From the NCBI GenBank assembly GCA_023935145.1, contig CM043702.1, positions 63,916,501-63,980,500 of the forward strand: a stretch of 64,000 nucleotides of DNA, read 5' to 3'. This document shows positions 5,244 to 60,995 of this stretch, in pieces (positions within the stretch are counted from its first letter, which is position 1; every line of letters starts with the position of its first letter). Source of the stretch: Bretschneidera sinensis (lineage: Eukaryota > Streptophyta > Magnoliopsida > Brassicales > Akaniaceae). The position numbers were made by a program, and so were the translations under genes. Under the pieces are notes generated by a model that saw only the letters and a list, made by a program, of their open reading frames with translations, did no database searches and had not been told where the DNA came from.

Positions 5244-6552
5244 TGATTACGCCCAAAATATAACGCGATTGTTGTAGCACAGCTTTGGGGTGTCGATTCC
5301 ACAAGGAAACGAGTTAACTACAAAAGAATGTGTGAACCATAACACAAACGATAAAGATTTAAGTGAGAAAATATGAACTTTTGGTAATGAAGTAATTGTG
5401 TAAAATAGATTGTAAAATATAATAGGAAAACAACAAGGATCCGGGAATCATCCCTAGGTTCGTTGTCCTATTCCTAACTTAATTCAGTTATTTTTATCTC
5501 GATTGCGAGTTTCACATCCCAAACAGGCAATCGGTAAATATTCAATGAGCACATATATAAACCCTAATATGATTGTTATGAAATACTTTTTATTTTCGAT
5601 TCGTGCACATATGATCTATCCTATAGGTTTATCAAGAAACGACAATATATCTTTGTTGACAATATTGTAGTAATGGACAAACCTAAAAGCTAAATCTATC
5701 GGACTCAGTTATACCCAAACAATCTTGACATAAGAAAAGCATGACTAAATTTATATCAAGGAGAAAGATACAATCACCGGAATAGATAAAATCTTATAAT
5801 TAGCTTAAAAAGTAAATCATAACAATGTTTTGACAATAATTCCTATTACAACTGAATCAAATAAGGGAAGATAGGAACAACTACACCTAGGGATTCATCC
5901 CTTCGCTTTGCTTGGAGATTAGTTCACCATGGGGCTCATGGTTGAACACTTTGATGGGGAAGAATTGGTTGCTTCCTTGAGTTTTCCAGGCTTCCAAAAG
6001 ATTCCTTTCTCTTAAACCCTAAGTGATCTATTTATAGTACAAAGGTCCAAGGGTGTTTTTGGGTTTAATCTATTGTTTAAAACCCGAATTAAGTTTTAAC
6101 TCGAAGATATAACATTGTGTGCACGCTGCGGTGCTCCTTTATAGGCACTACGATGTTGGTTTCAACTTTGGTTGGGTAAGCTTCTGGGCACCGCGGTGCT
6201 GGCTGAGGGGCACCACAGTGCACACTGATGGTTCAAGATGTGGAGGCTTCTGGGCACCGCTGTGCTGGCTGAGGGGCACCGTGGTGCAGACTGATGACTT
6301 GATTTTTTATTCATGTTTGCTTCTTCGCAACCACTCCGACACTCCATTATGCATGGAATCTTGACACTTTAAGCAATGATCGCTTTTTCTTCTCTTTTGG
6401 ACTCAAAGTACCTAAAAATTCACTGAAATAAGTCAGTGATCCAATAATATCACTTTAGAGTTATTAACATATAAAAGTACAATAAAGACCGAGATCAATC
6501 CTAAAATGCTAACGATTAAACACTATTGAGATGCATTTTATGGCTCTCATCA
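5244..6552 (-). repeat. 3' LTR of the subfamily A Athila-like element
   Basis: Same length (1309 bp) and nearly the same sequence as 11710-13018. On the minus strand it runs TGATGAGAGCC to GGCGTAATCA. A minus-strand TATA box (CTATAAATAG) is at 6028-6037. Six 12-bp boxes related to the palindrome GCACCGCGGTGC start at 6123, 6145, 6188, 6210, 6254 and 6276, upstream of the TATA box. The copy at 6188 is a perfect palindrome. Confidence 0.9.
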
Positions 6553-8188
6553 CAACCCCTAACTAACTTATTGCTAGTCCCTAGCAATTCAAGCAAAAAC
6601 AAAGGATAAATTCTACGGTGGGAGTTAAAAACAAAGTAAAGCAATGCTAGCGTTGAACCAAGAGTAATTCACTTTTTTTTGTCTCAAAAATTGCACACAA
6701 CATACAGCACATAGAATTATTAAATATAACTCATTTCAAAAAGTAATCCAACCATCAATCTTAAAATCGTTATTGACTCTTAACATCCATCTTACCACAA
6801 TCCATTAATCCGAACACCCGGATGACTTTATGCACAACATTCATGAATAGAAGTCTTGGCCTCTAAGAACATAATAAATTGCATGACATCAATCATAAAT
6901 CAAGCTCTATAGGCTTACTTTTCAAATCACTTTCCACTATTGTAGAAAAAATCACACTACATTGGATCAATAGGTCTTTACTAAGCTTGTAACATTAGGC
7001 TAAGGTAAAAGTTAAGAAAGAACGGGAAGGATTCAACAAGTAAAAGAACTTAATCTCTTAGTTTTGAACACAACTCTTTAAGCACTGGATAACTTTACTT
7101 CAATACCCAACTCTTCCAACCATTTTCCGAGCATTTGTTTCAACAAATCACCATTTTTTTTCTTTCTTTCTTCTTTCTTTGCCATAATTCACTTTTTTTT
7201 TATTTTGGCACATAAGACCATTCACCCCATTTTTCATCATTTTCTTTTGTTTTCCACAACCCCCAACTTATCTCTTTTCATGTATTTGGGCTATGGTAGT
7301 AATATTTTTTTTCTCATACTTTCATCCTTACTTCTCTTGAGTGTTTCTCAACAAATATGTATAACTAAGTTCTTTTAAAAGGAAAGTAAGGATAAAATAT
7401 TTTAGGCTCATAAAGGTAAGTAAATGGGCTATTGAAAGAAACAAGGCTCAAATTCTTTTTCAAGAAAAAGGCTCAAATTGGTGACTAGTGATAAATATAG
7501 CAATGTTAAGTTTGGAAGGCTCAAACGGTTCAAAAATAGCCTATATCATATCCTAAGTAGTGTGCATTCTAGAAATTCGCCTCAAGTGATTATTAAATAA
7601 GTTTTAGAGCTTGTCGAGACCGTAAAAGCATTCACAAAACAATCACACATAAAACTTCTCTAAATGTTTTAGACTAATCATACATTCTTACCGCAAACTA
7701 GAGTCTCAAACCAAGTGAAGATTGATACTTAAATTAATTTCAAACCGAAGCAAGATTTAACTTCTTCTAAATGTTATATGTTATCTAAATTTAGGCTCAT
7801 ATCATTGATATGTGAATAAACTCTAAGGCTTAACACAAAGCATGCTAAAAACAAACAAAAAGAGAAAATGACACCAAGCAGTTCAATAAAAAACATGAAT
7901 ATGTTTCCTCCACCCCCAACTTAAAGTAGACATTGTCCTCAATGTGAAAGCAAAAGATAAGGAAACTCTCTTTGTAGCAAAAAGTGCACAAAAGCTGAAA
8001 ATTGTGCACCACCATTTGAACTGCTTCATATATTTGTCCCTAAAAAAGAAAAACGAAAGTAAAACTGGAAAACCGCAAAATAATAATAATAAATAAGAAA
8101 AAGAAATATGAAAAACCATAAAAATAGAAGGATATGTTGTGGGTTGCCTCCCATGAGCGCTAAGTTTTACGTCTTCAGCCAGGCGCTC
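6553..8188. other. Non-coding 3' internal region of the subfamily A element
   Basis: Lies between the gag and the 3' LTR. A purine-rich tract (minus strand AGTTAGGGGTTG, about 6553-6564) abuts the LTR and is the likely plus-strand primer. No pol domains were seen. The matching region of the sister element at 20225-21879 is equally empty, so lack of pol is ancestral to both copies and not a private deletion. Confidence 0.65.
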
Positions 8189-11100
8189 TTATTCCTTCCT
8201 AGACAAACATAGGTTGAATGCACCAACCACTGCTTCATTGCCAAATTCGGTGCTTGTATGCTTTGGAGAGGCCTTAAGGATGTCATAAGTAACATCTGTA
8301 AATTCTAGCTTGATATATGCTCTTGTGAAGCCATAGGTGAGGGTGGACTTTAATGGATTAAGGTGCTGGACCTTTTCCATGAATGAGTCAATCATGTATG
8401 CTTGGTGGGTTTCATCCACATCCTCTGATTTTTTTGTTGTTGGGATGTGTAATAACTTACCACTTAGTGTCTCAATGGTATTCACCTTCTTTATATTCTG
8501 TTGCGCTAGGTGTTGACCATGGGGTATGGATTGAGCTTGAGAAGGGAACTTACCTCGCTCAGTCACACTCAAGTAGCTCATCAACTTGGACACTTGGCTC
8601 TTTATCTCTTTATTTTCTTCAACAACCTACGTAATTAAAGATTCAAGTCTTTGATTAGTCTTACCCTGTGCCTCAATAAAAGCTTGTAAAGTGTCTTCTA
8701 AAGAACTCCTAGAAGATACAGGTGCACGATATGGTTCAAGATATGGTGTAGGGGGTTGTGCAAGCTGCTGGTTTTCAGACTTCCAGCTGAAATTGGGATG
8801 ATTTTGCCATCCCAGATTATAAGTATCAGAGAAGGGTGCCAAAGGCTTCTTGTAATGCCTAAGGCATTACATTGTTCCTTATAAATCCCTCTCATCTCAG
8901 CAAATGTGGGGCACTCTTGGGCGAGATGATCTACCCCGCCATACACAAAACATGGTTCAAAAGATTTTGCATGATTAGCTATGTGTGTTGGTGATGAGAG
9001 TCATAAAATGTATCTTAATAATACTTAATTGTTAGCATTTTAGGCTTGATCTAGGTTTTAATTGCACTTTTATACGTTAACAACTCTAAAGTATCATTCT
9101 TGGATCATTGATCTACTTCGGTGCATTTTCAGGTACTTTAAGCTCAAAAGAGGAGGAAAAGTTATCATTGCTTGAAGCACAAAGACTCGAGGCATATTAG
9201 AGTGAAAGAATACTTCCGGAAAGACAAGATGGAGGGCTTAAAAAAGCAACAGCTGCTACCCGCATTGGAAATGAGTTTCACTAAATTACGAGAATTACCC
9301 GTACAGATCAATCATCTTTGAAAATTAAACTGTATTGATACAAGAAGAACCAGGAGATAAACCATATATTCTTAGAAAGATCCAGAAGTCTATTTTCTTG
9401 AGAATTTTCTGGTTCGTCAAAAGGATATTTCTAGAGAAAGTTATGGCAGTTTTAGTAGACAAAGGTCAGGCGGTGCGAGATTTCAGCGTGATTTTGGGCT
9501 TAAATCCCACATCCCACATCGGTTGGAAAACACATTTCTATATCCCACATCCCACATCGGATGGGAAACACATTACACTCTTGGTATTTGCCTATATAAG
9601 ACCCACTCCACTTTAGCTTTGAGTATCAATCGGAGCTCATCTGAAATCATCAGAGAGTGAATCCAGAGGGCCTTTAGGAGCAATCCAGAGGGCCTTTAAG
9701 ACGAATCTGAGGTATGATTTTAGAGGCCAAGCTGAGGAATCACCGAAGCTTTCGCTACCAAGGAGGAGATGATCGTTGAGAGGCCGGAGGCAACTCAAGG
9801 AATCATGAGCCCCATGGCTGGATAGTCTCCAAGCAAGGCGAAGGGATGAATCCCTAGGTGTAGTTGTTCTTATTTTTATTTATTTGATTCGGTTGTAGTT
9901 GGATATTATTTTCATTAAACATTGTTATGTTTTATTCTTAATTTAATTAGTAGATTTATTATTACTCCGGTGATTGTATGCTTCTTTTCCATATAAGTTC
10001 AGTCATACTTTTCTTATGTGTACCTGTTTGGGTGTGATTGAGTCTGGTAGATCTCTTTTATAGATTTGTCCATTGCTGTGGTATTATCATTTAGATATAT
10101 CGTTGTCTCTTGATAATTTATAAGTTAGGTCATGTGTGCTTGAAAGTAAAGAAGATTTCATAACAATTACATTAGGATTTATAAATGCACTTTAATCGAA
10201 TATTTGCCGATTGCCAGTTTGGGATGTGAAACTTGCAATCGAGATAAAAACAACTGAATCAAGTTAGGATTAGGGCAATGAACCTAGGAAGGATTTCCGA
10301 TTCCTTGTCGTTTCTTTATTATATTATTCAATCATTCACATAATTTTCATAAAATAAACAATTCAGATTCTTTAATTCAATCTTTTATCGTTTGTGTTCA
10401 AGTTTACACCTTCTTCTGTAATTAACTTGTTTCTCTGTGGAATCGACACCCCAAAGTTGTACTACAAATACCGCATTATGTTCTGGGCATAATCAATTGG
10501 CTTTAAGCTCTTAGTATTTAACACCTCTAGTTCCCTAGTGAGCATCTTGACCTTGGCCTTAAGGTTATCCTCTTCCCTAAGATGGTAAATTCCACCACCA
10601 TTTGGGTTCCCTACAGGTCGTGCCCTATTTGTGCTTTCAGTAGCACTAGGTCCAGTCCAAGTGTGAGCTTTTTCTGCAACCTCATTGAGGTACTCTATGG
10701 CCTCATCAGGATCTTTCTCCAAGAACTCACCATTACACATCATCTCTACAAATTGGTGGTCTCTATATGTAAGTCCCTCATAAAAATAGCTCACTAAGCA
10801 CCAACTCTCATACCCATGGTGAGGGCACATACTCAACAACTCCTTAAATCTCTCCCAAGACTGATACAAAGTCTCACTGTCCTTTTGTGCAAAGGTGGAG
10901 ATTTGCCTTTTTAAAGCATTGGTCTTATGTTGGGGAAAGTATTTATTAAAGAAAATTCGAGTCATCTCAGTCCACGACCCAATAGATCATGGTCTTAGTG
11001 AGTATAGCCAACTCTTAGCTCTATCCTTCAAAGTGAAATGAAAGAACTTAAGCCTCATAATGTCATCGGTTTCATCTTGACTATGAAAAGTCGTGACTAC

Positions 11101-11440: not shown

Positions 11441-11687
11441 ATACACCAAATAAGTCAGAGGGAAATAAATAAATGGAAGAAAATAAAAGAAAATCAGAAA
11501 ATCAAATCAAAGAGAAAAGAACAATAATAAATAAAAATACTATAAAAAAAAAGAAGAAAAAAATTGCAGCAAGCTAAAAGAGGGAACGAAGTTACCGCCT
11601 TTACAAACTGCTGAAAGAAAAACTATCTACAAATCTTCTACTGTCTTGTCTTAGAGTCGACAATCTTCTTTGTACTTAAGTGTGTTT

Positions 11688-11704
11688 CCCCGGCAACGGC
11701 ACCA
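11688..11704 (-). other. Primer binding site, tRNA-Asp type
   Basis: On the minus strand TGGTGCCGTTGCCGGGG follows the 5' LTR within a few bases. It differs by one base from the complement of the plant tRNA-Asp 3' end, the primer typical of Athila/Tat Gypsy elements. The intact form is seen at 18311-18327. Confidence 0.85.
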
Positions 11705-11709
11705 AAATT

Positions 11710-13018
11710 CGATTACACCCAAAACATAACGCGGATGTTGTAGCACAGCTTTGGGGTGTTGATTCCACAGGGAAACAAGTTAACTACAAAAGAAGGTGTG
11801 TACCATAACACAAACGATAAAGATTTAAGTGAGAAAATATGAACTTTTGGTAATGAAGTAATTGTGTAAAATAGATTGTAAAATATAATAGGAAAACAAC
11901 AAGGATCCAGGAATCCTCCCTAGGTTCGTTGCCCTATTCCTAACTTGATTCAGTTGTTTTTATCTCGATTGCGAGTTTTACATCCCAAACAGGCAATCAG
12001 TAAATATTCAATGAGCACATATATAAACCCTAATATGATTGTTATGAAATACTTTTTATTTTCGATTTGTGCACACATGATCTATCCTATAGGTTCATCA
12101 AGAAATGACAATATATCTTTGTTGACAATATTGCGGTAATGGCAAACCTAAAAGCTAAATCTACTGGACTCAATCATACCCAAACAATCTTGACATAAGA
12201 AAAACATGACTAAATTTATATCAAGGAGAAAGATATAATCACCGGAATAGATAAAATCTTATAATTAGCTTAAAAAGTAAATCATAACAATGTTTTGACA
12301 ATAAATTCCTATTACAACTTAATCAAATAAGGGAAGATAGGAACAACTACACCTAGGGATTCATCCCTTCGCCTTTCTTGGAGATTAGTTCACCATGGGG
12401 CTCATGGTTAAACACTTTGATGGGGAATAATTGGTTGCTTCCTTGAGTTTTCCAAGCTTCCAAAAGATTCCTTTCTCTTAAAGCCTAAGTGATCTATTTA
12501 TAGTACAAAGGTCCAAGTGTGTTTTTGGGTTTAATCTATTGTCTAAAACCCTAATTAAGTTTTAACTCGGAGATATAACATCGTGTGCGTGCTGCGGTGC
12601 TCCTTTATGGGCGCTGCGGTGTTGGCTTTAGCTTTGGTTGGGTGTGATTTTGGGCACCGTGGTGCTAGCTGAGGGGCACCGTGGTGCACACTGATGGTTC
12701 AAGATGTGGAGGCTTCTGGGCACCACGGTGCTGGTTGAGGGGCACCACGATGCACACTGATGACTTGATTTTTTCTTCATGTTTGCTTCTCCGCAACCAC
12801 TCCGACACTCCGTTATGCATGGAATCTTGGCGCTTTAAGCAACGATCGCTTTTTATTCTCTTTTGGACTCAAAGTACCTAAAAATGCACTAAAATAAGTC
12901 AGTGATCCAATAATATCACTTTAGAGTTATTAACATATAAAAGTCCAATAAAGACCGAGATCAATCCTAAAATGCTAACAATTAAACACTGTTGAGATGC
13001 ATTTTATGGCTCTCATCA
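11710..13018 (-). repeat. 5' LTR of the subfamily A Athila-like element
   Basis: 1309 bp, matching 5244-6552. Its inner end has lost the terminal T (CGATTACACCC instead of TGATTACGCCC). A minus-strand TATA box lies at 12494-12503. GCACC-GGTGC boxes start at 12589, 12611, 12654, 12676, 12720 and 12742, again in 22-bp doublets. Confidence 0.9.
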
Positions 13019-14956: not shown

Positions 14957-14996
14957 ATAAACAAAGTGAGAATTAAACCATAAGCTTGTTGGAGAA

Positions 14997-15903
14997 TGTT
15001 GGAAATCACCTTGACAAGATGCCCAGGTGGTGATCTTCCAAACACCCAAGTCTAGAATGACTTGTAAAGATTAGGAATCGAAAACAGAAACAGAAACAGA
15101 AATGAAAGAAAGAAAGAAAGAAGACAAGCAATTTGTTATCGAGGTTTGGCAATAGCCTACGTCCCCGTGAGTTCACCTGAACTCTCTGCACTAATCAATG
15201 GTTCTTTTACAATCACAGCAACCCCTCTCCAAGAAGCTCAAGTTCTTGAAGGAACAAAGAAGAAGAAGAAACAGAAAGTGATGAGAACTAACCCTAGAAT
15301 TTTCCCAAGAAAATTCCCTTTACAAGCCCTTCAATCCCCTTTCTATTCTACTCACTCTTCTAAACAACCAGCCTTACAAATGAATCTTTTTTTTTGTGTC
15401 TTTGCACTCTTTACAATTCTCTCACTTTTGATCACAAGTTATGTCACATTTTTATTGAGAATGAAGCTAGGTGACCCTTTATATAGTGCACCAAATTCTT
15501 GTCCAATCTTGAGTGTCATTCTCCACCCTTAGATCTAGATGAACAATCAACCATAGCCTTTGATCATTCCTTAGTCAAGCTGTGCATTTTGGATATGTTT
15601 CAGGAACCATGGAAGAGGTTTACACATGTGTGCATCAATGTGCCTGGCGCCGCGGCCCAGTGCATAGCACACATTCACCATCTTCTGGGCGCCACGGCCT
15701 TGGGTAGGGGGCACAGTGGCCTGGCCTCCTCCTCTAACACTCCACCTTCTGGGCGCCGCGGCCTGATCTGATACACACCCAATTTTGCTGCTTTGTGCTG
15801 AGGCATACTCCAAGTGTGTTGAGGCTTGAATGACTTGATGCTTGACCTCTTCCAACCTTGTTTAAACCTTGACCATGTTTAAACCCTTAGACAAATACCA
15901 ACA
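14997..15903 (-). repeat. 3' LTR of Copia-1
   Basis: 907 bp, against 945 bp for its partner at 26437-27381. The minus-strand TATA (CTATATAAAGG) is at 15476-15486. GC-rich boxes related to GGCGCCACGGCC start at 15646, 15688, 15710 and 15752. Compared with the other LTR, one box of two doublets has been lost here, which accounts for much of the length difference. A 5-bp AAAGA/GAAAG repeat lies at about 15100-15125. Confidence 0.88.
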
Positions 15904-15984
15904 ATCTCTATCTTTGTCTAAGCGTTTAAACCCAAACCCATTGTGCAGAGAACTTCAGGATCCAAACTTATCTTGAGTCATCAA

Positions 15985-16815: not shown

Positions 16816-16820
16816 GAAGG

Positions 16821-18305
16821 TGATGAGAGTCATAAAATGCATCTTAACAGTACTTAATTGTTAGCATTTTAGGGTTAATCTAGGTTTTAATTGCACATTT
16901 ATACGTTAACAACTCTAAAGTATCATTCTTGGATCATTGAATTACTTCGGTGCATTTTCAGGTACTTTAAGCTCAAAAGAGAAGGAAAAGTTATCATTGC
17001 TTGAAGCACAAAGACTTGAGGCATACTGGAGTGAAGGAATACTTCCGGAAGGACAAGATGGAGGGCTTAAAAGAGCAACAGCTGCTGCCCGCATTGGAAA
17101 GGAGTTTCACTAAATTGTGAGAATTGCCCATACTGATCAATCATTTTTGAAAATTAAACTGTATTGATACAAAAAGAACCAGGAGATGAGCCATATATGC
17201 TTAGAAAGATCTGGAAGTCTATTTTCTGGAGAATTTTATGGTTTGTCAAAAGGATTTTTCTAGAGAAAGTTATGGCAGTTTTAGTAGACAAAGGTCAGGT
17301 TGTGCGGGCTGTGCGGGATTTCAACGTGATTTTGGGCTTAAATCTCACATCCCACATCGGTTGGAAAACGCATTTCTATATCCCACATCCCATATCGGAT
17401 GGGAAACACATTGCACTCTTGGTATTTGCCTATATAAGACCCACTCCACTTTAGCTTTGAGAATCAATCGGAGCTCATCTGAAATCATCAGAGAGTGAAT
17501 CCAGAGGGCCTTTAGGATGAATCCGAAGTATAATTTTGGAGGGCAAGCTGAGGAATCGTCGAAACTTTCGCTACCAAGGAGGAGATGATCATTGAGAGGT
17601 CGAAGGCAACTCAAGGAAGCATGAGCTCTATGGCCGGCTAATCTCCAAGCAAGGCGAAGGGATGAATCCCTAGGTGTAGTTGTTCTTATTTTCCTTTATT
17701 TGATTCAGTTGTAGTTTGGTATTATTTTCATTAAATATTTTTATGTTTATTCTTTAATTTAATTAGTAGATTTATTATTACTCCGGTGATTGCATGCTTC
17801 TTTTCCATATAAGTTCAGTCATGCTTTTCTTATGTGTACTTGTTTGGGTGTGGTTGAGTCCGGTAGATCTCTTTTATAGATTTGTCCATTGCTGTGGTAT
17901 TGTCGTTTAGATATATCGTCGTCTCTTGATAATTTATAAGTTAGGTCATGTGTGCTTAAAAGTAAAAGAAGATTTCATAACAATCAAATTAGGATTTATA
18001 AATGCGCTTTAATTGAATATTTTCCGATTGCCTGTTTGGGATGTGAAACTTGCAATCGAGATAAAACCAACTGAATCAAGTTACGATTAGAGCAACGAAC
18101 CTAGGGAGGATTTCTAGAACCTTGTCGTTTCTTATTTATATTATTCAATCTATTTACACAATTTGCTCACAATTTAGATTCTCTCATTTAATCTTTTATC
18201 GTTTGAGTTAAAGTTTACACCTTCTTTGTAATTAACTTGTTTCCCTATGGAATCGACACCCCAAAGCTGTACTACAATAACCGTGTTATACTTTGGGCGT
18301 AATCA
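16821..18305 (+). repeat. 5' LTR of the subfamily B element
   Basis: TGATGAGAGTCAT to GGGCGTAATCA. It contains two TCCCACATCGG repeats about 38 bp apart (around 17350-17400) and a TATA (CCTATATAAGACCC) at about 17429-17442. It lacks the GCACCGCGGTGC doublets of subfamily A, although both ends and the downstream part of the LTR are homologous. Confidence 0.92.
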
Positions 18306-18310
18306 AATTT

Positions 18311-18520: not shown

Positions 18521-20224
18521 ATGCAAAGACATAGAGATGCTTGTAGGCCTGTGCTAGAGTCAGAATTCAATTCATTTCTAAATCCTTTATTTGACAGTCC
18601 ATATAGTCCCGAAGAAATGAGTGAACATGAATATCAACCCCCTAGGACCCTTCAGGATTACCTCAACCCTACACACACAGCCACACCATCATGCATCATA
18701 TTTCCAGCCAATACTCGCCCATTAGAGTTTAAAACATGGATGATACATTTACTCCCTACATTTCATGGCTTGGATAATGAAAACTCATATGTTCACATTA
18801 GAGAGTTTGAGGAAGTAGTCGCGACTTTTCATTGTCAAGACGAAACCGTTGACATTGTGAGGCTTAAGTTCTTTCCTTTCGCTTTGATGGATAGAGCTAA
18901 GAGTTGGCTATACTCACTTAGACCACAATCTATTGGGTCATGGACTGAGATGACTCGGATTTTTTTTAATAAGTACTTTCCCCAACATAAAACCAATGCT
19001 TTAAAAAGGCAAATCTCCACCTTTGCACAAAAGGACAGTGAGACTTTGTATCAGTCTTGGGAGAGATTTAAAGAGTTATTGAGTGTGTGCCCTCACCATG
19101 GGTATGAGAGTTAGCGCTTAGTGAGCTATTTTTATGAGGGACTTACATATGGACATTGTCAATTTGTAGAGATGATGTGTAATGGTGAGTTTTTAGACAA
19201 AGATCCTGATGAGGCCATAGAGTACCTCAATGAGCTTGCTGAAAAACCTCACACTTCGACTGGACCTAGTACTACTGAAAGCACGAATAGGTCACGACCT
19301 ATAGGGAACCCAAATGGTGGTGGAATTTACCATCTTAGGGAAGAGGATAACCTTACGGCCAAGGCCGAGATGCTCACCAGGGAACTAGAGGCATTAAAAA
19401 CTAAATGCTCAAAGCCAACACACATGGCTAACCATGCCAAATCTTTGAAACCATGTTTTGTGTGTGGCGGGGTAGGTCATCCCACTCAAGAGTGCCCCAC
19501 ATTTGTTGATATGAGAGGGATGTATGAGGAACAATGTAATGCCTTAGGCATGTACACGAAGCCTTTTACACCCTTCTCTAATACTTATAATCCGGGATGG
19601 CGCGATAACCCCACTTTCAGTTGGAAATCTGAAAATCAGCAGCTTGCACAACCCCCTAGCTCATATTCTGCACCATATCATGCACCTTCATCTTTTAGGA
19701 GTCCTTTAAAAGACACTTTGCATGCTTTTATTGAAGCACAGGGTAAGACTAATCAAAGACTTGAATCTTTGATTACGCAAGTTGTTGAAGAACATAAGGA
19801 GATAAAGAGCCAAGTGTCCAAGTTGATGAGCTACTTGAGTGTGACTGAGTGAGGTAAGTTCCCTTCTCAAGCTCAGTCCACACCCCATGGTCAGCACCTA
19901 TCACAAAATAATTTGAAGGAGGTTAATGCCATTGAGACACTGAGGGGTAAGTCATTACGCATCCCAACAACAGAAAAATCAAAGGATATGGATGAAAGCC
20001 ATCAAGCACAAGCATACATGATTGACTCATTCATGGAAAAGGTTCAGCACCTTAATCCATTTGAGTCCACCCTCATCCATGGCTTCACTAAAGCATACAT
20101 CGAGCCAGAATTTGCGAATGTTACTAATGACATCCTTGAGGCCCCCCAAAAGCATAGAAGCACCAAATTTGGCAATGAAACAGTGGCGGATGCATTCAAC
20201 CTATGTTTTTCAAGGAGGGAATAA
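18521..20224 (+). pseudogene. Athila-like gag with two nonsense codons
   Basis: Starts MQRHRDACRPVLESEFNSFL at 18521. The gag core spans about residues 65-200 (FPQHKTNALKRQIS, YQSWERFKELL, CPHHGYES). A CCHC-type knuckle (CFVCGGVGHPTQECP) is at about 19454-19498. A coiled-coil-like stretch with TNQRLESLITQVVEEHKEI lies near 19750-19805. Two stops interrupt one continuous frame. One is TAG at 19112-19114, where the sister copy at 10800 has tryptophan. The other is TGA at 19850-19852, where the sister has arginine. Both are single C-to-T type changes. Beyond the stops the homology continues to 20224. Confidence 0.85.
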
Positions 20225-21879
20225 GAATGTCTAGCTAAAGACGTAAAACTTAGCACTTATGGGAGGTAACCCACAACGTATCCTTTTATTTTTATTATTT
20301 TTTTTATATTTCCTTTTTTATTGTTTATTATTATTATCTTGTTGTTTTCCAGTTTTACTTTCGTATTTCGTTTTCAGGGACAAAAATACGAAGCAGTTCA
20401 AATGGTGGAGCACAATTTTCAGCTTCTGTGCACCTTTGGCTATAAGGTGAGTTTCCTTTACTCTTTCTTTTACATTGATATCAATGCAATTTTTAAGTTG
20501 GGGGTGGAGGAAATGCATCTCTTTGTTTCCATATTCTTTATTTCCATACATTTTTTTTCTTTTTCCATTAAACTGCTTGGTGTCATTTTCCCTCTCTTTT
20601 TGTTTTAAGCATGCTTTGTGGTTGCCTTGGAGTTAATTCACATGTCAATGATATAAACTTAATTGAGATAGTAGATAGTATTTAGAAGGAGTTAAATTTA
20701 GTTTCGGTTCGAAATTAATTTAAATATCAATCTTCATTTGGTTTGAGACTCTAGTTTGTGGTAAGATTGTATGATTAGTTTATAACATCTAGAGAAATTT
20801 TATGTGATTATTTTGTGAATATTTTTGCGGTCTCAACAAGCTCTAGAACTTACTTGATAATCACTTGAGGCGAATTCCTAGAATGCACACTACTTAGGAT
20901 ATGATATAGGCCATTTTTGAACCGTTTGACCCTTTCAAACCTACCATTGCTATATTTATCACTAGTCACCTATTTGAGCCTTTTTCTTGAAAAGAAAAAT
21001 TGAGCCTTGTTTCTTTCGATAAACCATTTACTTACCTTTATGAGCCTAAAAATATTTTTATCCTTACCTTTCTTTTAAAAGAACTTAGTTATACACATGT
21101 TGTGAGAAGCACTTAAAAGTAGTAAGGGTGGAAATATGAAAAAATATCACTACCGCAACCCAAGTACATTAAAGGAGATAAGTTAGGGGTTGTGGAAAAA
21201 AATGAAAAAGAAGGTGAATGGTTATGTGCAAAAAATAATAAATAAATAAAAGAATTATGGGAAAGAAAGAAAAGAAACAAATGGTGATTTGTTGAAAGAA
21301 ATGCTTGAAAAATGGTTGAAAGAGTTGGGTGTTGAAGTAAGGTTATCCAGTGCTTAAAGAGTTGTGTTCAAAACTAAAAGATTAAGTTCTTCTACTTGTT
21401 GAATCCTTCCCGTTCTTTCTTAACCTTTACCTTATCCTAACGTTACAAGCTTATTAAAAACTTTTTGATCCAATGCAGTGTGATTTTTCTACAATAGTGG
21501 AGAGTGATTTGAAAAGTGAGCCTATGGAGCTTGTTTTTGTGATTGATGTCACGCAATTTATTATATTTTTAGAGGCCAAGACTTGTATTCATCAATGTTA
21601 TGCATAAAATCATCCGGGTGTTTGGATTAATGGTTTGTGGTAAGATGGATGTTAAGAGTCAATAATGATTTTAAGATTGATGTTTCGATTACTTTTGGAC
21701 TTAGATGAAATTTAATGATTCTATGTGTCGTATGTTATGTGAAATTTTTGAGACAAAAAGTGAATTACTCTTGGTTCAACGCTAGCATTGCTTTACTTTG
21801 TTTTTAACTCCTACCATAGAATTCATCTCTTATTTTCGCTTAAATTGCTAGAGACTAGCAATAAGCTAGTTGGGGGTTG
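20225..21879. other. Non-coding 3' internal region of the subfamily B element
   Basis: Between gag and the 3' LTR. T-rich then mixed sequence, homologous (inverted) to 6553-8188. No protease, RT or integrase motif is visible in any frame. It ends in the polypurine tract at about 21869-21879. Confidence 0.7.
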
Positions 21880-23340
21880 TGATGAGAGTCATAAAATACA
21901 TCTTAACAGTAATTAATTGTTAGCATTTTAGGGTTGATCTAGGTTTTAATTTCACTTTTATATGTTAACAACTCTAAAGTATCATTCTTGGATCATTGAT
22001 CTACTTCGGTGCATTTTCAGGTCCTTTAAGCTCAAAAGAGGAGGAAAAGTTATCATTGCTTGAAGCACAAAGACTCGAGGCATATTGGAGTGAAGGAATA
22101 CTTCCGAAAGGACAAGATGAAGGGCTTAAAAGAGCAACAACTGCTGCCCGCATTGGAAAGGAGTTTCACTAAATTGCGAGAATTGCCCGTACATATCAAT
22201 CATATTTGAAAATTAATCTTTATTAATACAAGAAGAACCAGGAGATGAGCCATATATGCTTAGAAAGATCCGGAAGTCTATTTTCTGGGGAATTTACGGT
22301 TCGTCAAAAGGATTTTTCTAGAGAAAGTTATGGCAGTTTTAGTAGACAAAGGTCAGGCTGTGCGGGATTTCAGCGTGATTTTAGGCTTAAATCCCACATC
22401 CCACATCGGTTGGAAAACACATTTCTATATCCCACATCCTATATCGGATGGGAAACACATTGCACTCTTGGTATTTGCCTATATAATACCCACTCCACTT
22501 TAGCTTTGAGGATCAATCGGAGCTCATCTGAAATCATCAGAGAGTGAATCCAGAGGGCCTTTAAGAGCAATCTAGAGGGCCTTTAGGACGAATTTGAAGT
22601 ATAATTTTGGAGAGCAAGCTGGGGAATCGCCGAAGCTTCCGCAACCAAGGAGGAGATGATCGTTGAGAGGCCGGAGGCAACTCAAGGAAGCATAAGCTCC
22701 ATGACCGGCTAGTCTCCAAGCAAGGCGAAGGGATGAATCCCTAGGTGTAGTTATTCTTATTTTTCTTTATTTGATTCAGTTGTAGTGGAATTATTTTCAT
22801 TAGACATTGTTATGTTTTATTCTTAATTTAATTAGTAGATTTATTATTACTCCGGTGATTGCATGCTTCTTTTCCATATAAGTTCAGTCATGCTTTTCTT
22901 ATTTGTACCTGTTTGGGTGTGACTGAGTCCGGTAGATCTCTTTTATAGATTTGTCCATTGCTGTGGTATTGTCGTTTAGATATACCGTCGTCTTTTGATA
23001 ATTCATAAGTTAGGTTATGTGTGCTTGAAAGTAACGAATAATTTGTATCAATTACATTAGGGTTTATACATGCGTTTTAATTGAACATTTGTCGATTGCC
23101 TGTTTGGGATGTGAAACTTGCAATCGAGATAAAAATGACTAAATCAAGTCTTGTTATTTCTTATTAAATCTATTTACACAATTTCCTTCACACTATTTTC
23201 ACATAATTCAAATTCTTTTAATCAATCTTTTATCGTCTGTGTTAAAATTCACACCTTCTTTTGTAATTAACTTGTTTCCCTGTGGAATCGACACCCCAAA
23301 GTTGTACTACAATAACTGCATTATGTTTTGGGCGTAATCA
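21880..23340 (+). repeat. 3' LTR of the subfamily B element
   Basis: 1461 bp from TGATGAGAGTCAT to GGGCGTAATCA; homologous to 16821-18305 with small indels. TATA-like CCTATATAATACCC at about 22478-22491. Confidence 0.92.
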
Positions 23341-26107
23341 GAAGGTTTCTGTGAAATCCATGCCTTTCGTTTGCGTGAACCCCTTCGCCACTAGCCTAGC
23401 CTTATTCCAGACTTCATCTTCTGGAGGGTACCCTTCTTTGATCTTGTAAGTCCACTTACAATCCACAACTCTCTGTTTTCCCGGAATGTGCGCCAATTCC
23501 CAGAAGTTGTTCTTCCTCAAAGAATCCATTTCTTCATCCATAGCTAGCTTCCATCTTGGCGAATCCTTACATCCCATGGCATCAATGTAAGTCTCTTGTT
23601 CACTCATCTCTCCTTCTGTCCAAGGAGCTGTTGCATCCGCAGCATCCGCAAACCCATATCTTGAAGGTGGTCCGACTAGTCTTCTTTCTCGGTCTCTTAT
23701 AAGCTGATAGTCCTTCTGACTTACTGCATCATCTTCTTTTAGTTCAGCCTCCTCATGAGTATCCTAAGCTGGGCATTCATCAATGGGCTCTACCTGATCT
23801 GAACCCTCTTGCCTTCCTTGCTATACCTTAATTGAATTCTCCTTGATGCGATGCTCCACAAATACCGAACGGGTTTGCTCACTAGCCCCTGCAGGGTTAG
23901 TTTTCTCCAAGTAGGGAAATAACAATTCATTAAAAATAACATCCCTACTTATAATGAGTTTCATTCCTTTAGGTTCTAAGGACCACAACCTATATCCCTT
24001 AACCCCATCACCATACCCTAGAAATACACATTTTCTAGACCTTGGGTTAAGTTTATCATCCTTTTGATGTGCAAATACAGCACACCCAAAAGTCCTATGG
24101 TTGCTCAACTCAGGGGGTTTCCCACTCCACATCTCCATGAGAGTCTTGAGCTCTAAAGCTCTAGAGGGTGATCTATTTACCAAGTATGCAGCAATAGCCA
24201 TAGCTTCTCCCCAAAAAATGTTTTGGTAAACCGGATCCTATTAACATGCATCTAACTTTTTTCATAAGGGTTCTATTCATCCTCTCAGCAACTTTATTTT
24301 GCTGATGTGTTTTTACAACCGTTTTATGTCTTAGAATGCCATTTAATTCACAGAATTTATCAAAATCCTTATTACAAAATTCTGAGCCATTATCGTTTCG
24401 TAAAGCCTTAACTACCCTATCCGTTTGAGTCTCCAGCAACTTTTTCCACACAACAAATTTATTCAAGGCATTTGATTTATTCTTAAGCATATAAACCTAA
24501 ACTTTTCTTGAATAATCATCAATTAAAGACAAAAAGTAAAAGTTACCTCCCTGTGTTGCTGTTCTTGTTGGTCCCCAAAGGTCCGAATGAATGTAGTCAA
24601 GAATGCCCTTAGACTTGTACACTCCGGTGTTGAAGCTGACCCGATGTTGCTTCCCAAGAACGCAACACTCGCAGAAATCCAATTTCTCTACTTTGTCTTC
24701 TCCAAGTAGACCATCCTTGCTAAGAACTTACAGGCCCTTTTTGTTCATATGTCCCAAGCGAGGGTGCCAAAGGGCTGCCCTATCCATCTCAGCCATCAAG
24801 CTTGTTGCTTGATCCTTGATTTCTATCTCTCTGATCATCTCATAGAGACCATCTTTTATTGCTACTTTGATCACTACCAAAGATCCCTTGGTCACCTTGA
24901 TATTTCCTCCCTCTGCTTTATATGTGTACCCCATGGAATCCAACTGCCCCAATGAAATCAAATTTCTCTTCACATCCGGAAGATACCTCACATTCCTTAG
25001 CAGCCTTGTGACTCCATCAAACATCCTCAACTGGATGTCTCTTATCCCCCTCACTTGGCAAGAAATATCATTCCCCAAGAAAACCCTTTCATCATTGGTT
25101 TCCTTGAAATTCTTGAACCAATCTCGGTGAGGGCACATGTAATGAGTGCACTCGGCATCTAAGATCCATTTCCTGTTGCCTTCTTGCCCCATGCTCACAC
25201 TTGAGCACACAACAAAAACATCATCATCTTGTTGTTCTGTCTTGGCAACCGAAGCCTTTCCATTCTTAGTATGGCTTCTTCCCTCATCCCTCATCTTCTC
25301 CTTGCAATCTTTCTTGAAGTGACCCTCCTTGTGGCAGTAGTAACATTTCTTCCCTCCAAATTTCAGTTTGGAGTGTGCTTTCCCATGGCTTTCTCCTCTA
25401 CCTCTGTCCTGGTAGTAGCCATGTATGTTGCTGTGCACTCTCCCATAGCTCTCTCCTCTACCTCTGTCCCGGTAGTAGCCATGTATGTTGTTGTTCACTC
25501 TCCCATGGCTCTCTCCTCTACCTCTGACCCGGTAGTAGCCATGTATGTTGTTGTGCACTCTCTCATGGCTCTCTCCTCTACCTCTGTCCCGGTAGTAGCC
25601 ACGTATGTTGTTGTGCGCTCTCCCATGGCTCTCTCCTCTACCTCTGATCTGGTAATAGCCATGGATGTTACTGCCATACCGAGTTGTTGGCCTTCTTCTA
25701 ATGAACAACCCTTTTCCACTTGATACACTCCTCATCTTGGCATCAAGATCATCTTGCAAGTCTTTATTAGGATCAAATTTAAAAGCAAAGATTCATTTAC
25801 GAAGATACCTCTTATTAGAGAGAGTCTTGGCAAGAAACAACTCATCTAGTTTCTTCCATATGACAGCTAGATCTTTTGAGTCTCTGCACTCCCTTATGAC
25901 ACTATCCGACATGTGCAAGAAGATGGTGCTGTATGCCATCTTCTTCATCTCATTCTACTGGTCATCTGTGGTACTTGCTGGAAAAGCATCATCTTCTCCA
26001 ATCGCCAAGTCCACTTTCTATTGCATAAGAACAGCTTTGATCTTTCGCTTCCACAAGGAAAAATCTCCCTTTCCATCAAACTTCTCAACCATGAAGTTTG
26101 AAGCCAT
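23338..26107 (-). pseudogene. Copia-1 gag, protease, integrase and N-terminal RT
   Basis: Minus strand, in order. A gag start (MASNFMVEKFDGKGDFSLWK) lies near 26107, with stops inside the gag. Five 20-residue RGRGES repeats are at 25381-25680. A zinc knuckle (CYYCHKEGHFKKDC) is at about 25304-25345. The protease reads LDAECTHYMC near 25170-25140, where the usual active-site DSG/DTG context is changed. The integrase zinc region (HPRLGHMNKKGL, then CECCVLGKQHRVSF) and core (DYIHSDLWGP, LIDDYSRK, then the 24490-24173 piece) follow. After the integrase tail, RT begins at 23607 and is cut at the nested element at 23341. Frameshifts and stops near 24490, 24200 and 23820 disable it. Confidence 0.85.
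25381..25680 (-). repeat. Five 60-bp tandem repeats in Copia-1 gag
   Basis: Five adjacent 60-bp units, each encoding on the minus strand a 20-residue unit of the form HNNIHGYYRDRGRGESHGRV. The repeats sit directly N-terminal to the zinc knuckle. The arginine/glycine-rich composition resembles RNA-binding RGG-type tails; that function is inference. Confidence 0.93.
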
Positions 26108-26435: not shown

Positions 26436-26436
26436 C

Positions 26437-27381
26437 TGTTGGAAATCACCTTGACAAGATGCCCAGGTGGTGATCTTCTAAACACCCAAGTCTAGAATGA
26501 CTTGTAAAGATTAGGAATCGGAAACAGAAACAGAAATGAAAGAAAGAAAAAAAGAAGATAAGCGATTTGTTATCGAGGTTCAGCAATAGCCTACATCCCC
26601 ATGAGTTCACCTAAACTCTCTGCACTAATCAATGGTTCTTTTACAATCACAACAACCCCTCTCCAAGAAACTCAAGTTCTTAAGGAAACAAAGAAGAAGA
26701 AGAAACAGAAAGTGATGAGAACTAACCTTGGAATTTTCCCAAGAAAATTCCCTTTACAAGCCCTTCAATCCCCTTTCTATTCTACTCACTCTTCTAAACA
26801 ACCAGCCTTACAAATGAGTCTCCCTTGTTTTGGATCTTTGCACTCCTTAAAATTCTCTCACTTTTGATCACAAATTATGTCACATTGTTATTGAGAATGA
26901 AGCTAGGTGACCCTTTATATAGTGCACCAACTTCTTGTCCAATCTTGAGTGTCATTCTACACCCTTAGATCTAGATGAACAATCAACCATAGCCTTTGAT
27001 CATTCCTTAGTCAAGCTGTGCATTTTAGACATGTCTCACGAACCATGGAAGAGGTTTACATATGTGTGCATCAATGTGCCTGGCGCCACGGCCTAGAACA
27101 GGGGGCGCCATGGCCCAGGGCATAGCACACATTCACCATCTTCTGGCGCCACGACCTTAGGTAGGGGGTGCTGCGGCCTGGCCTCCTCCTCCAGCACTCC
27201 ACTTTCTGGGCGCCACGACCTGGGGTAGTCTGGGCCGCGGCCTGACCTGATGCACATCCAATTTTGTTGCTTTGTGCTGAGGCATACTCCAAGTGTGCTG
27301 AGGCTTCAATGACTTGATGCTTGACCTCTTCCAATCTTGTTTAAACCTTGACCATATTTAAACCTTAGACAAATACCAACA
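26437..27381 (-). repeat. 5' LTR of Copia-1
   Basis: 945 bp, TGTTGGTATTTG to TTTCCAACA on the minus strand. The minus-strand TATA box lies at about 26912-26922. GC boxes start at 27082, 27104, 27145, 27167, 27209 and 27231: three doublets with an exact internal spacing of 22 bp. Confidence 0.9.
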
Positions 27382-27439
27382 GAAAAATTTCTAAGGACTG
27401 TTTACCAAAATAAATAAGAGAGAATAAGAAAAATGGCTT

Positions 27440-28670
27440 CAAGACACGACTAGGTAGCTTTTCTTAAGGTTTAATTCGCCTTTCACTAGTGCAAGAAGGT
27501 TTTTGGCGAATTTCCTCTAAGATACAATAAAACTCTGTTGTTATCCTGCACTTTGCACTCGTGAAGAACAACCCATGGCAGCTTCTATGAGTTTATGGAT
27601 AAATAGCACTTATGTTTAAAAATTTGCTAGATTTCTAAACATAAGAAAATCAATTTTTCAGAGAAGGAGAAAAAGAATAAGAAAGGAAATCTAAAATCTG
27701 AATTCTGTAAACTATGATAGTTAAACACCCTATTTATAGTGTTTAATTAGTGTCTTTCCATTAGAGACACCTTAGTTCAGTAATAAACCGACTTAAACTG
27801 AAATAACTAAGTGTCTTTTCTCAAAAGACACTCTTATTCACGAGCAATTGTCATTTAATGTTCAAAAAATTCAAATTTTCGAACATCCAGTCGATTGAGT
27901 CTTTCATTCAGTCGACTAGAAAAATTCCAGATAGTTCCAAAAAAATTTAGTCTTCCATCCAGTCGACTGAATGGTTCATACAGTCGATTGTAAACACTAT
28001 TCAGTAGACTGTATTACGCATGCAGTTGACTATATTAAGCATACAATGAAGCTCTGTTGTTATTCTACACTTTGTACTCGTGAAGAACAACGCACGACAG
28101 CTTCTATAAGTTTATGGATGAATAGCACTTATGTTTAAAAATTTGCTAGATTTCTAAACATAAAAAAATAAATAATAAAATAATAATTTTTTTAGAGGAC
28201 GAGAAAAAGAATAAGAAAGGAAAAAATATGAATTCTGTAAATTATGACAGTTAAACACCCTATTTATAGTGTTTAATTAGTGTCTTTCCATTAGAGACAC
28301 CTTAGTTCGGTAATAAACTGATTTAAACTGAAATAACTAAGTGTCTTTTCTCAAAAGATACTCATTTTCACGAGCAATTGTTATTTAATGTTCAGAAAAT
28401 TCAAATTTTTCGAACATCCAGTCGATTGGATCTTTCATTCAGTTGACTAGAAAAATTCCAGATAGTTTCAGAAAATTTATCTTCCATCAAGTCGACTGAA
28501 TGGTTCATATAATCGATTGTAAACACTATTCAGTAGGCTGTATTAAGCATGCAGTTGACTATATTAAGCATGCAATCAACTGTGTCACTTTCATAAGCCA
28601 AAATTTTTTTTTCCTTTTCCATTAATTTTTTAAAATATTCCAAACTTAATATTATTGAAAATCATCAACA
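27440..28670 (-). repeat. 5' LTR of element X with internal tandem duplication
   Basis: Homologous to 2687-3287 but about twice as long. A block beginning near 27526 recurs from about 28045 (compare CTCTGTTGTTATCCTGCAC with CTCTGTTGTTATTCTACAC), giving two copies of about 520 bp. Each copy has a minus-strand TATA-like box (27731-27740 and 28261-28270) and an upstream set of degenerate CAGTCGACTG boxes. In copy 1 these start at 27887, 27908, 27959, 27980, 28001 and 28022. It ends (minus-strand start) at TGTTGATG, 28670. Confidence 0.8.
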
Positions 28671-51245: not shown

Positions 51246-52308
51246 TGTTGACCCCTAACTTGATTTTAATGATAACAAAACCGATTTGAGTAGATCTAAT
51301 CAAATTACCTAAGTGTTTTAGCATTTAAAGGTTTTTATACAGAAGCTTGCACCTGAAGAGAAGACGTTAGAGATCAAGATTAGAAGCTCTAGGTAGTTTA
51401 AATCTTTGTAAATCTTCTCTTAAAGTCTTTAGCTTTATTTATGGCTTAATTGTTTTCAAATTATTTTAGATAAAAACTTTTGAACTTAATTACTAAATCT
51501 ATAAAGTTTTTGAAAATTTGAAATGACTTTTTCAAAGGGATTTAGTCAACAGAAAGGATTATTCAGTCGACTGAATGGAGGACAGAAAAACTTGCCCTTC
51601 TGATTTAGTTGACTGAATAAAACACTTAGTCGACTGAATGAACCAGTCGATTGAATGAAACATTCAATCGACTGTATAAAACATTTAATTGATTATATGA
51701 AGGTTATACTTTCTTTCCTTTTGACCCAGTCGACTTCTCAGTTCTATTAGTCGACTCAATGAAGGACAAATAATTCAACTCTCTAACCTAATTGACTGAA
51801 TGAACTTTTAAGCTGACTGTATGGTCTTTGCTTAAAATAGAGAAGAGATCTTCAATCAACTGAATAGTCTTCCAATCGATTGAACACCGAGTCTAACGAC
51901 TATATTTCAAATTTTAAAGCGTTGTTCAGAGCATTAAATGCTCCAAACCACTCCTAATCAGCCTTACTTTGTGAGTAACGATTATAAAGGTTTAAGACTA
52001 TATAAATCCATAATAAATGAGTTGAACTAAAATTCTTTGATCATTAAATTTATTCTTCATCTCATTAATAAGTCTTTAAAGCTTTCAAAATCCTTTATGA
52101 GCTATTTCTAAAGCTTTAACCCTTTTAAGAGAGATTATCTTCATCTGGTAATGCATTAATTGCTATCTCTCTTGTATTGCTCTACAATCAATTCCAATTA
52201 TTGTAAATAGAAAGAGTTGGTATAACTCTTAGAAGTGTTTAGATATTAAATATCTTCTTATACACTGCCTTTTGGAAGAGATCGTTGTAAGGTTTGGGCA
52301 ACACTCGT
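51246..52308 (+). repeat. Sirevirus-like LTR, cut by the Gypsy pair
   Basis: Begins TGTTGACCCCTAACTTGATT followed by TTAATGATAACAAAACC, the typical start of Sirevirus-type Copia LTRs. A TATA box (CTATATAAAT) lies at 51998-52007. Thirteen degenerate AGTCGACTG boxes start between 51542 and 51872, mostly in 21-bp doublets. The 3' end is missing because the Gypsy LTR starts at 52309; the rest should lie beyond the window. Confidence 0.7.
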
Positions 52309-54000
52309 TGTAACCCCAGGTTGGCCACCCCAGAGACGATATTGTCATATTTTGAAAATCTCAGCACAACACATATATGCAACAATAAAAAAACAACTTA
52401 ATGATTTACATACATAAATCCTCAACCCTCAACAGGGGAGTTACATCATTCAAATCTCAATTGAACAGTATATACAACATATTATGCATGAATGTTTACA
52501 AAATTTTTTTTTTCATGTTTCTTTCTCATTAGTCTGAGGATGTGGACCACGTGGCTTACAGAAAATGATCTAGTCTGAATCTTCGCTCACAATTCTATCC
52601 GTCTTGCCCATTACCTGAAATCATTGAACAATGAGGAGTGAGCTTCACAAGCTCAGTGAATTAAATTTACTAGAAGTATTCAATTTATATAAGTAGTCTT
52701 CCAATATTCATTCATCTATATCTTATATATTTTGATGATAACATTCTATTATCATTACTCATATCAAATCTCCATCCTTTATAAATATATTCTTTTCATA
52801 GATTTAATTATCATCTTGAGATTTTCAATTCTATCTCATAATTACCTCATTATTAGGTTCACAACATAAAATCTATCACTCAGATAATTCTCATCATTTC
52901 ATATCTCTATACTTCTTCTCAGCTTAATTGTCTCTCTGTGTGAATCATTCATCTATCAATAAATTTACAATCATGAATAGCACTTTAGCATCTCAAGTAA
53001 TAACAATCAATATTTAAAACAGATGCAATGCATGAATTATTATTAAGGAACATCTTCCCACATGTCGACATATTTTTATCTTAGACCGACTGCCTTTCTA
53101 GTTCTTTTATTTTATTTAGACCGGCTGCCTTCGCGGTTCTTTTATTTCCAGATACTGGCTGCCACGGTTTTCATTTATTTCCAGCGTATACCAGCTGTCA
53201 CGGTTTTTCATATATTTCCAGCATAGACTGTCACGGTTTTCATTTAGACCGGCTGCCCTCTTGGTTCTTTTATTTCATGTATATGCATATGCATAATGAT
53301 ATGAAATATGCATATGCACAATAATATATATATATATATATAAAAAAAACACATGTTTTCATACATTCAAATTAGTTATCATGCTTCTTCTCAAATCATT
53401 ATTTGATCAATCTCACTAATTACTTCTCCTCATATATCATATCAACTCATCATCCATAGTTCGTCAAAATTTTTACTTATTCCTGTCATACCTGTCAACC
53501 AACTTTCATCTATCACTAAATCATAAGTTAATAATATATTTTAATACTATCATTATATATTTCATATTTATCTTGATTACTTAAAGAAAATCAACTCACC
53601 ACGTAGCACTTAGAGCTACCCGTGGATCACCTCCTTGCCTTTCCTGCTCCCCTTAGTAATTTTCCCCTGTTGTTGATCGTTAACACCTGACATAATATTT
53701 ATATTAAAATTTCTAATTTATTCCTTAATTCCTTCATAATTCACACCCTTTGAAAATTCTCACATTGAATTTCGGGAATTTCATGTATGCTAAATTTAAA
53801 AAATAAACTTCACATTATTACCTTCTGTTTTTCTTAGAGCTTCTCATGACTCTCTATAAAATTCTCCCGTAAACCCCTTCAAAATTTTACTCTTTCAATT
53901 TTTCTTTCGGTCCCCAAGTGTTTAATGAAATAGAGTAGTTTGAATTGAGGAAAGGAGAAAACCAAACAAGATTTGGTAAGTAATGAATAAATAAAAGAAA

Positions 54001-54043
<43 letters not shown>

Positions 54044-57845: not shown

Positions 57846-57849
57846 ATTT

Positions 57850-57861
57850 TGGTATCAGAGC
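57850..57861 (+). other. Primer binding site, initiator tRNA-Met
   Basis: TGGTATCAGAGC begins five bases after the LTR end. It is an exact match to the complement of the plant initiator tRNA-Met 3' end. Confidence 0.9.
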
Positions 57862-57869
57862 ATTATGTT

Positions 57870-60036: not shown

Positions 60037-60995
60037 TGTTGTAGCTCGAGGATTCAACCCAAGAGGGGGGGTGAATTGGGTTTTTAAAAACTTTTGCGGA
60101 ATTTATACAAGTTTATAAAAACTGATAAGCAACAAATAATTAATACAAGTAGAAAGCTGTAAATAAAGAGTTTAAGGAAAGAGGATGCAAACACAGTTAT
60201 AGTGGTTCGGCAATATTGGATTCGTTCCGACCCTACGTCCACTCTCTTCAAGGAACTCCTTGAAGTAATCCACTAAGAAAACTTAGTCGCACAACTTAGC
60301 CGGGTGTTGCACAAACCGTACACAAGCAATTTACAGGAATTGCTTAAACCGAAAAATCCCCTTCCTTTCGGAAGTTTCCCCTTCCTCTCGGAAGTAATCC
60401 CTTTACAAAGATGGTGTAAAGTAACAGGTAGAGAGACAACAAATGAAAGCTTATTACAACAAAAATGTCTCTCTTTCAAAGTAAAGCTTGAAGAAATGGC
60501 TCAATAAGATTATCTCAAAGCTTTTTGTGTTTCAAGAGTATAAAAACTTGATTATATGAGATCAACTCTTTTTGAATATTTGCTTCTTGTCTTTGAATGC
60601 TTTGCTGAATGGGTTTATATAGCAATCAATTAATATGGCCGTTTTGGACTTTAATTTGAAAAAGATTTACTTTAAAACGTTCAGATTTGGAGTCCAACGG
60701 TCATATTTTTGAACTACCAGTCGACTGGGTCGAGATACCAGTCGACTGGGTTCACTTGAAAAATATACGTTTTCAGACCTTCTGGGTATCCAGTCGACTG
60801 GTATATATCATCCAGTCGACTGGGGACTTTCTGTCCATTTTACCAGTCGACTGGGTTGATTCATCCAGTCGACTGGGAAATTACTGGTCAAAGTACCAGT
60901 CGACTGGGTTTGATCCTTAATACAACTTAGTTTAAACATGTTAGTTAAATAACAGTTGTGTTTTGCCATCATTAAAATACGGGCGAGGGTCAACA
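60037..60995 (-). repeat. 3' LTR of the Sirevirus-type element
   Basis: 959 bp with perfect short inverted ends TGTTG / CAACA. The minus-strand TATA box (CTATATAAA) is at 60614-60622. Seven exact copies of CCAGTCGACTGG start at 60717, 60738, 60790, 60812, 60843, 60865 and 60896. The insertion splits the Gypsy RT after 60036. Confidence 0.9.

Follow-up and report, generated by a model that had tools for sequence, protein, structure and literature searches.

Five families of long terminal repeat (LTR) retrotransposon in a 64,000-bp stretch of the 1.21-Gb Bretschneidera sinensis genome (hereafter the window), in which LTR retrotransposons are nested, carry regular arrays of short boxes upstream of the TATA box, set in doublets two helical turns apart, an arrangement that would suit dimeric proteins bound on one face of the DNA. 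On balance, we lean towards the reading that these boxes are activator sites phased by whole helical turns and, in the first of two box groups, in register with the TATA box, and that a Sirevirus element at 60040-64000 uses this module twice. The original prediction for the window had described such doublets in five families and explained them by convergent or captured enhancers; its observation is partly confirmed by our analysis, and its interpretation is partly supported. Families are named here by window coordinates, and LTR ends, taken from self-comparison and by eye, may be some bases off. What the prediction called Copia-1 is LTR 26437-27381 (partner LTR 14997-15903), and its Copia-like X corresponds to LTR 27385-28620, a family that also has an old copy near 2700-3310. 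Box-to-TATA distances are given centre to centre, between the nearest box and the TATA 8-mer.

Group 1 boxes are of the CAGTCGACTG palindrome type and occur in the Sirevirus LTR 60040-60993, in LTR 51246-52310 and in Copia LTR 27385-28620. The corresponding features, together with those of the Sirevirus interior, are listed below.

60717..60907, minus strand: array in the unique 3′ region (U3) of the Sirevirus LTR, seven CCAGTCGACTGG boxes
60614..60621, minus strand: TATA box of the Sirevirus LTR, TATATAAA, nearest box centre 105 bp away (10 turns)
63557..64000, minus strand: 3′ end of Copia pol (RNaseH part), stop codon 63559-63557
63142..63415, minus strand: second array, between pol and an env-like open reading frame (ORF), 10 boxes, some degenerate
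63123..63130, minus strand: TATAAAAG, candidate internal promoter, last box centre 21 bp away (2 turns)
61667..62923, minus strand: env-like ORF, 418 amino acids, PF20167, start codon 207 bp below the TATA start
51543..51882, plus strand: array of LTR 51246-52310, 11 CAGTCGACTG-type boxes recognised
51999..52006, plus strand: TATA box of LTR 51246, nearest box centre 125 bp away
27888..28032, minus strand: array of Copia LTR 27385-28040, CAGTCGACTG type
27731..27738, minus strand: TATA box of LTR 27385, nearest box centre 158 bp away
28419..28582, minus strand: array of the tandem LTR copy 28036-28620, TATA 28261-28268 at 159 bp

Across the eight window LTR arrays, TATA and the nearest box centre are 96-170 bp apart, compatible with the predicted location 85-170 bp upstream, and the arrays extend to about 360 bp. 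In group 1, typical distances are 105, 126, 158 or 148, and 21 bp, which correspond to about 10, 12, 15 or 14, and 2 turns of 10.5 bp. Close Sirevirus LTR arrays had a distance of 105 bp in 30 of 31 cases and 104 in the other (the window copy being counted twice), and diverse Sirevirus-type LTR arrays gave 104-107 bp in 15 of 16 and 124 in one. All 13 internal arrays entered gave 21 bp, and an independent scan found this value at 14 loci, two of them overlapping. Among 15 copies of family 51246, 11 gave 126 bp and one each 125, 127 and 117; the remaining copy, listed at 114, has a weak extra box below its regular box at 126, so that the regular nearest box lies at 125-127 bp in 14 of 15 (the window copy, at 125, was measured apart). 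Copia 27385 arrays fell at 157-159 bp in seven of 11 cases and at 148-149 in four. Taken together, these five distance classes had a coherence of 0.97 (p = 0.0005 with the period fixed and 0.003 when it was scanned), which dropped to 0.83 (p = 0.004) when the two group 2 families were added. When 123 distinct and non-independent distances were pooled, a peak appeared at 10.5 bp (R = 0.50); no other period tested between 9 and 12.75 exceeded 0.26. The dimeric, one-face reading is therefore stronger for the CAGTCGACTG group than originally claimed, since TATA sits in the same register.

Several loci were left out of these tallies. Among 25 further Sirevirus-type loci (L073-L079, L108-L125), the fetched stretches of L074, L075, L112 and L115 held no TATA in range. 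Of 12 internal-type loci, L097, L098 and L101 lacked the motif, and L100, L103 and L104 showed at most two boxes in the sequence fetched. The 15 Copia 27385 rows lost L069, L071 and L072, which had no TATAAA within range, and the old copy at 2700-3310, itself out of range. Both the LTR and the internal class include L108, and L106 stands outside the pooled count with a distance of 21 on the independent scan. Five of the 16 diverse LTR arrays (L119, L120, L121, L124 and L125) had been fetched for holding an out-of-step pair, and the sample is therefore biased against the register result.

The steps between boxes were measured again. The sense-strand steps of the Sirevirus LTR are 31, 22, 31, 22, 52 and 21 bp, the reverse of the list first reported, and those of LTR 51246 are 21, 42, 21, 17, 21, 62, 21, 41, 64 and 20, in which 62 and 64 replace the reported 21+41 and 21+43 because a weak box in each falls under our cut-off. 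LTR 27385-28040 has steps of 21, 21, 21, 51 and 21, and tandem LTR 28036-28620 has 21, 21, 21, 21, 49 and 21. After allowing for orientation and weak boxes, the predicted interval lists were thus recovered. Genome-wide, the exact Sirevirus box CCAGTCGACTGG has 55,578 copies against 11 for its reversed control, and pairs of exact boxes, counted at start-to-start spacings of 21-30 bp, number 14,757 at 21-22 bp versus 247 at 23-30 bp; among the distinct places listed for the latter, 42 of 50 are at 30, i.e., a 31 minus one base. We then considered the first 100 exact boxes on contig C1, picked without regard to regularity, which provided 78 intervals of up to 150 bp (21-22, 31, 42-43, 50-53, 63, 72, 75, 115-116, 124 and 136 bp). 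These fit the proposed 10.5-bp periodicity, with R = 0.88-0.90 at 10.4-10.5 bp and a phase near zero; the ten interval classes gave p = 0.0006, with the caveat that classes are non-independent and the larger ones are partly sums.

The second array in the Sirevirus element, which the range of the original prediction omitted, provides a candidate for a promoter that has been sought elsewhere. On the minus strand, the pol stop is followed by the ten-box array at 63415-63142 (steps 22, 31, 22, 31, 22, 60, 22, 31 and 21), by TATAAAAG at 63130-63123, reading TATAAAA two turns downstream of the array, and by the env-like ORF at 62923-61667; a protein search with this ORF returned no match at E 0.001. 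In nine of 12 fetched loci with candidate internal arrays, TATAAA lies 11 bp after the last box, and five more loci (L113, L117, L118, L122 and L123) share the internal TATA spacing. The internal TATA string TATCGCGATTCTATAAAA has 697 exact genome copies and its control none. At the other three of the 12 loci (L097, L098 and L101) there is no such TATA after the array; these arrays have steps of 22, 31, 22, 31 and 22 with no TATA box nearby, and perhaps belong to elements without an env-like gene or to decayed copies. Bousios et al. 2010 (PMC2829016), in the relevant sections, proposed an internal env promoter that was not conclusively identified, and the TATA at 63123-63130 is a candidate for it on the basis of its position and recurrence. 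For the expression of the env-like gene in Sireviruses, an internal TATA two turns below a phased array offers a concrete, testable site.

Assignment of element 60040-64000 (minus strand) to the Sireviruses is based on a polypurine tract (PPT) octamer, AGGGGGAG, directly before the 3′ LTR, an AT/TG attachment site and a flanking inverted repeat; octamers end at 61005 and 61215. The element also has the Sirevirus repeated motif (RM), i.e., palindromes upstream of both the LTR TATA and env. Its box core is CAGTCGACTG, with no CGG-CCG; as Tnd-1 likewise lacks CGG-CCG in a table of Bousios et al. 2010 (PMC2829016), this absence is not disqualifying. Sirevirus LTRs, and the region upstream of env, are already known to carry palindromic arrays. 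As in the parts of that paper describing the RM, high-copy palindromic boxes here occupy the upper LTR half upstream of a conserved TATA, with additional boxes upstream of the env-like gene. The core differs, however, being CAG-CTG around TCGA rather than the RM signature CGG-CCG, and the relevant sections of the same paper do not mention regular spacing or register. Palindrome clusters are likewise described in the LTR regulatory region of maize Sireviruses (Bousios et al. 2016, PMC4728375, via citing papers, in which it is cited for small RNAs and epigenetic response). The TATA register, the internal TATA and the related array in a Copia without Sirevirus junctions were not found in the open-licence literature searched, and an exact-motif literature search returned, among the matches listed, only unrelated titles. 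If the TATA register holds, it would make Sirevirus palindromes a testable promoter rule.

Ten boxes were present in 28 of the 30 close Sirevirus LTR copies fetched. A further LTR in the same orientation (L032, at G000:C6:63985290-63986160) lies 8.7 kb from LTR 60040-60993 and is probably the 5′ LTR of the same element; its listed identity across query bases 84-954 is 100%, yet it has 10 boxes compared to seven in the window LTR, which points to a very recent change in array length.

Although the RM is described as absent from classic Copia in the relevant part of PMC2829016, a related array is present in Copia 27385, so the motif is not confined to Sireviruses. The Copia 27385 and 51246 arrays align over about 60-110 bp, spacers included. 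Shuffles that preserve the boxes reached the mean score of this comparison in 1, 12, 0, 0 and 0 of 200 trials (for five of the 15 copies) and its maximum in 30, 40, 11, 1 and 6 of 200. This similarity beyond the boxes argues for common origin or capture rather than convergence, and it crosses a lineage boundary. The 3′ LTR junction was read in three relatives of 51246 and conforms to the Sirevirus type (PPT octamer, AT/TG site, inverted repeat), with the exact octamer and AT in L146 and a slightly altered octamer in L148 and L149; the window copy has no PPT beside it (a solo or truncated LTR), and the primer-binding site (PBS) TATCAGAGC was not found at the one 5′ LTR end fetched for this family (L147). 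Copia 27385 lacks the Sirevirus octamer and AT/TG site in one relative, L151, which reads GTGGGGGA then TTG, and no PBS TATCAGAGC follows the LTR end of another, L152; L153-L155 gave no clear junction. Overall, one to three loci were read per junction. The stretch 27385-28620 itself comprises two tandem LTR copies of one Copia family, 89% alike, alongside which the LTR 26437-27381 element is inserted.

Group 2 boxes are centred on CCGCGG and are found in Athila-like LTRs 5241-6552 and 11706-13018 and in Copia LTR 26437/14997.

6123..6287, minus strand: array of Athila-like LTR 5241-6552, GCACCGCGGTGC type in 66-bp units, TATA 6029-6036 at 96 bp
12589..12753, minus strand: array of Athila-like LTR 11706-13018, TATA 12495-12502 at 96 bp
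27082..27242, minus strand: array of Copia LTR 26437-27381, directional CCGCGG-centred boxes, TATA 26914-26921 at 170 bp
15646..15763, minus strand: array of partner LTR 14997-15903, TATA 15478-15485 at 170 bp

Both Athila-like LTRs (minus strand) have steps of 22, 44, 22, 43 and 22; those of LTR 26437-27381 are 22, 42, 22, 41 and 22, and those of its partner 42, 22 and 42. Doublets of 21-22 bp and longer steps of 41-52 bp are therefore common to both box groups, but the predicted multiples of 10.5 bp apply to group 1 and not to group 2, in which steps of 22 and 43-44 imply a period nearer 11 (about 10.9-11) for the Athila-like family and steps of 22 and 41-42 imply about 10.7 for LTR 26437. 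The 12-mer of LTR 26437/14997 had also been described as palindromic; in 29 further genomic copies and the two window LTRs the box is directional around its CCGCGG core.

The 15-mer CGCGGYGCCCAGAAG, typical of group 2, has 832 genome copies (control 0), and of 20 places fetched, 15 matched Athila-like LTRs best and five the Copia LTR; a comparison covered 13 of those 15. The two families share the box together with an asymmetric CCCAGAAG extension (mean score 23.0 versus 17.5 in shuffles, 0/40), and the reverse strand scores 21.4 because the box core is palindromic. Their arrays share 18-20 identical bases. Plain shuffles never reached the mean score (0/150 at each of six places), whereas box-preserving shuffles, 400 at each of six among the 15 Athila-like places, did so 22, 139, 9, 94, 73 and 43 times and reached the maximum 35, 118, 31, 253, 26 and 41 times. 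Similarity beyond the boxes is mostly non-significant, and this weakens the case for capture; given how weak it is, either capture or convergence could account for group 2. Athila-like LTRs 8987-10496, 16819-18306 and 21876-23340 match the LTR ends of 5241-6552 at about 80% but not across its array, which suggests that the Athila-like U3 was exchanged or rebuilt as a block; in 8987-10496 and 21876-23340, no such array occurs in the U3 stretches read, and their 22-bp repeat lies below TATA. In the sections of PMC1838419 on the Tnt1 superfamily, the U3 regulatory module likewise changes independently of the remainder of the element. That description stays within one Copia superfamily, whereas here an array is common to a Sirevirus-like LTR and a Copia without Sirevirus junctions, and one box type is common to Athila-like and Copia LTRs. 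If true, such sharing between families would illustrate one route by which an element recovers or alters its promoter.

Our preferred explanation for these results is that the boxes are bound by an activator that recognises their sequence and that, for the palindromic CAGTCGACTG type, is most likely a dimer; the relevant sections of Bousios et al. 2010 (PMC2829016) state that no common binding factor could be named. Adjacent sites held 2, 3, 4 or 5 helical turns apart would align the bound proteins on one face, and group 1 arrays placed 2, 10, 12, 14 or 15 turns from TATA would point the activators towards the complex bound at TATA. The Sirevirus at 60040-64000 would use the module in its LTR to drive the genomic transcript and again, after pol, as an internal promoter of the env-like gene; arrays could also pass to other families as modules. 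A broader proposal is tentative: plant LTR elements may share a promoter grammar in which paired boxes and TATA lie on one helix face and geometry is kept rather than box sequence. The Sirevirus would use this grammar twice, in its LTR and in a real internal env promoter, and the module would pass from one lineage to another, possibly even across the Copia-Gypsy divide, since it would rely on a single abundant dimeric activator, either the plant's or element-encoded.

The interpretation of phased activator sites must be made cautiously, as several observations weigh against it. The five class values of TATA distance were picked after inspection; step lengths alone, each counted once, gave p = 0.059; and two steps, one of 17 bp in 51246 and one of 60 bp in the internal array, break the register. 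In the old Copia copy at 2700-3310 the nearest recognised box lies out of register at about 187 bp from TATA, and group 2 has no shared TATA register but drifts. Within a family, the distances from box to TATA do not clearly vary less than those in control stretches, and recombination between boxes is able to delete whole steps without selection. The main rival explanation, which we regard as rather unlikely but serious, is inherited tandem duplication, in which a few rounds of duplication of a doublet unit, followed by copying in bursts, would leave a spacing that reflects history and not constraint. In its favour are the steps-only p value, the within-family spacing, array gains and losses that come as whole units, and repeated units of 53, 64 and 66 bp. 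Duplication explains the repetition of steps, however, and not why several step lengths and five TATA distances fall near whole turns; moreover, the related 51246 and Copia 27385 arrays differ in their longer step by about one turn (41-44 versus 51 bp).

An alternative scenario, which we consider improbable, is that the palindromes work at the RNA level, their hairpins leading to small RNAs and silencing, as reported for maize Sireviruses, whose palindromes are described as small-RNA hotspots in the relevant passages of PMC5311732 and PMC10760457. Predicted folding is indeed strong in the Sirevirus (z -9.2), 51246 (z -7.2) and Athila-like (z -3.5) arrays. The directional LTR 26437 array has z -0.66, yet shows identical doublet geometry, and folding does not predict a TATA register; hairpins may be a side effect instead of an alternative, plausibly by-products in the palindromic arrays and not in the directional one. 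Least probable is independent convergence on one spacing in all five families, as originally favoured: 21-22-bp doublets and 41-52-bp steps do recur in both groups without sequence similarity in the two cross-group comparisons tested, which scored below shuffles, yet five independent box types are rejected by the sharing of boxes within each group and of spacers between Copia 27385 and 51246, so that convergence survives only between the two groups. No more than two separate origins are then left, and the 10.5-bp register does not extend to group 2.

Some further features bear on the classification of the group 2 elements. A PBS-like TGGTGCCGTTGCCGGGGA, which may match the Athila (tRNA-Asp-type) PBS, follows the 5′ LTR of the Athila-like element, and a PF03732 gag domain lies in an ORF of a neighbouring related element (18521-19114), with no pol seen. 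Between LTRs 14997-15903 and 26437-27381, ORF 24728-25759 (minus strand) encodes PF22936 and a zinc knuckle, which are Copia domains; the finer lineage is presumably Tork-like. This gag-pol ORF contains a 60-bp tandem repeat of about 4.8 copies at 25378-25669.

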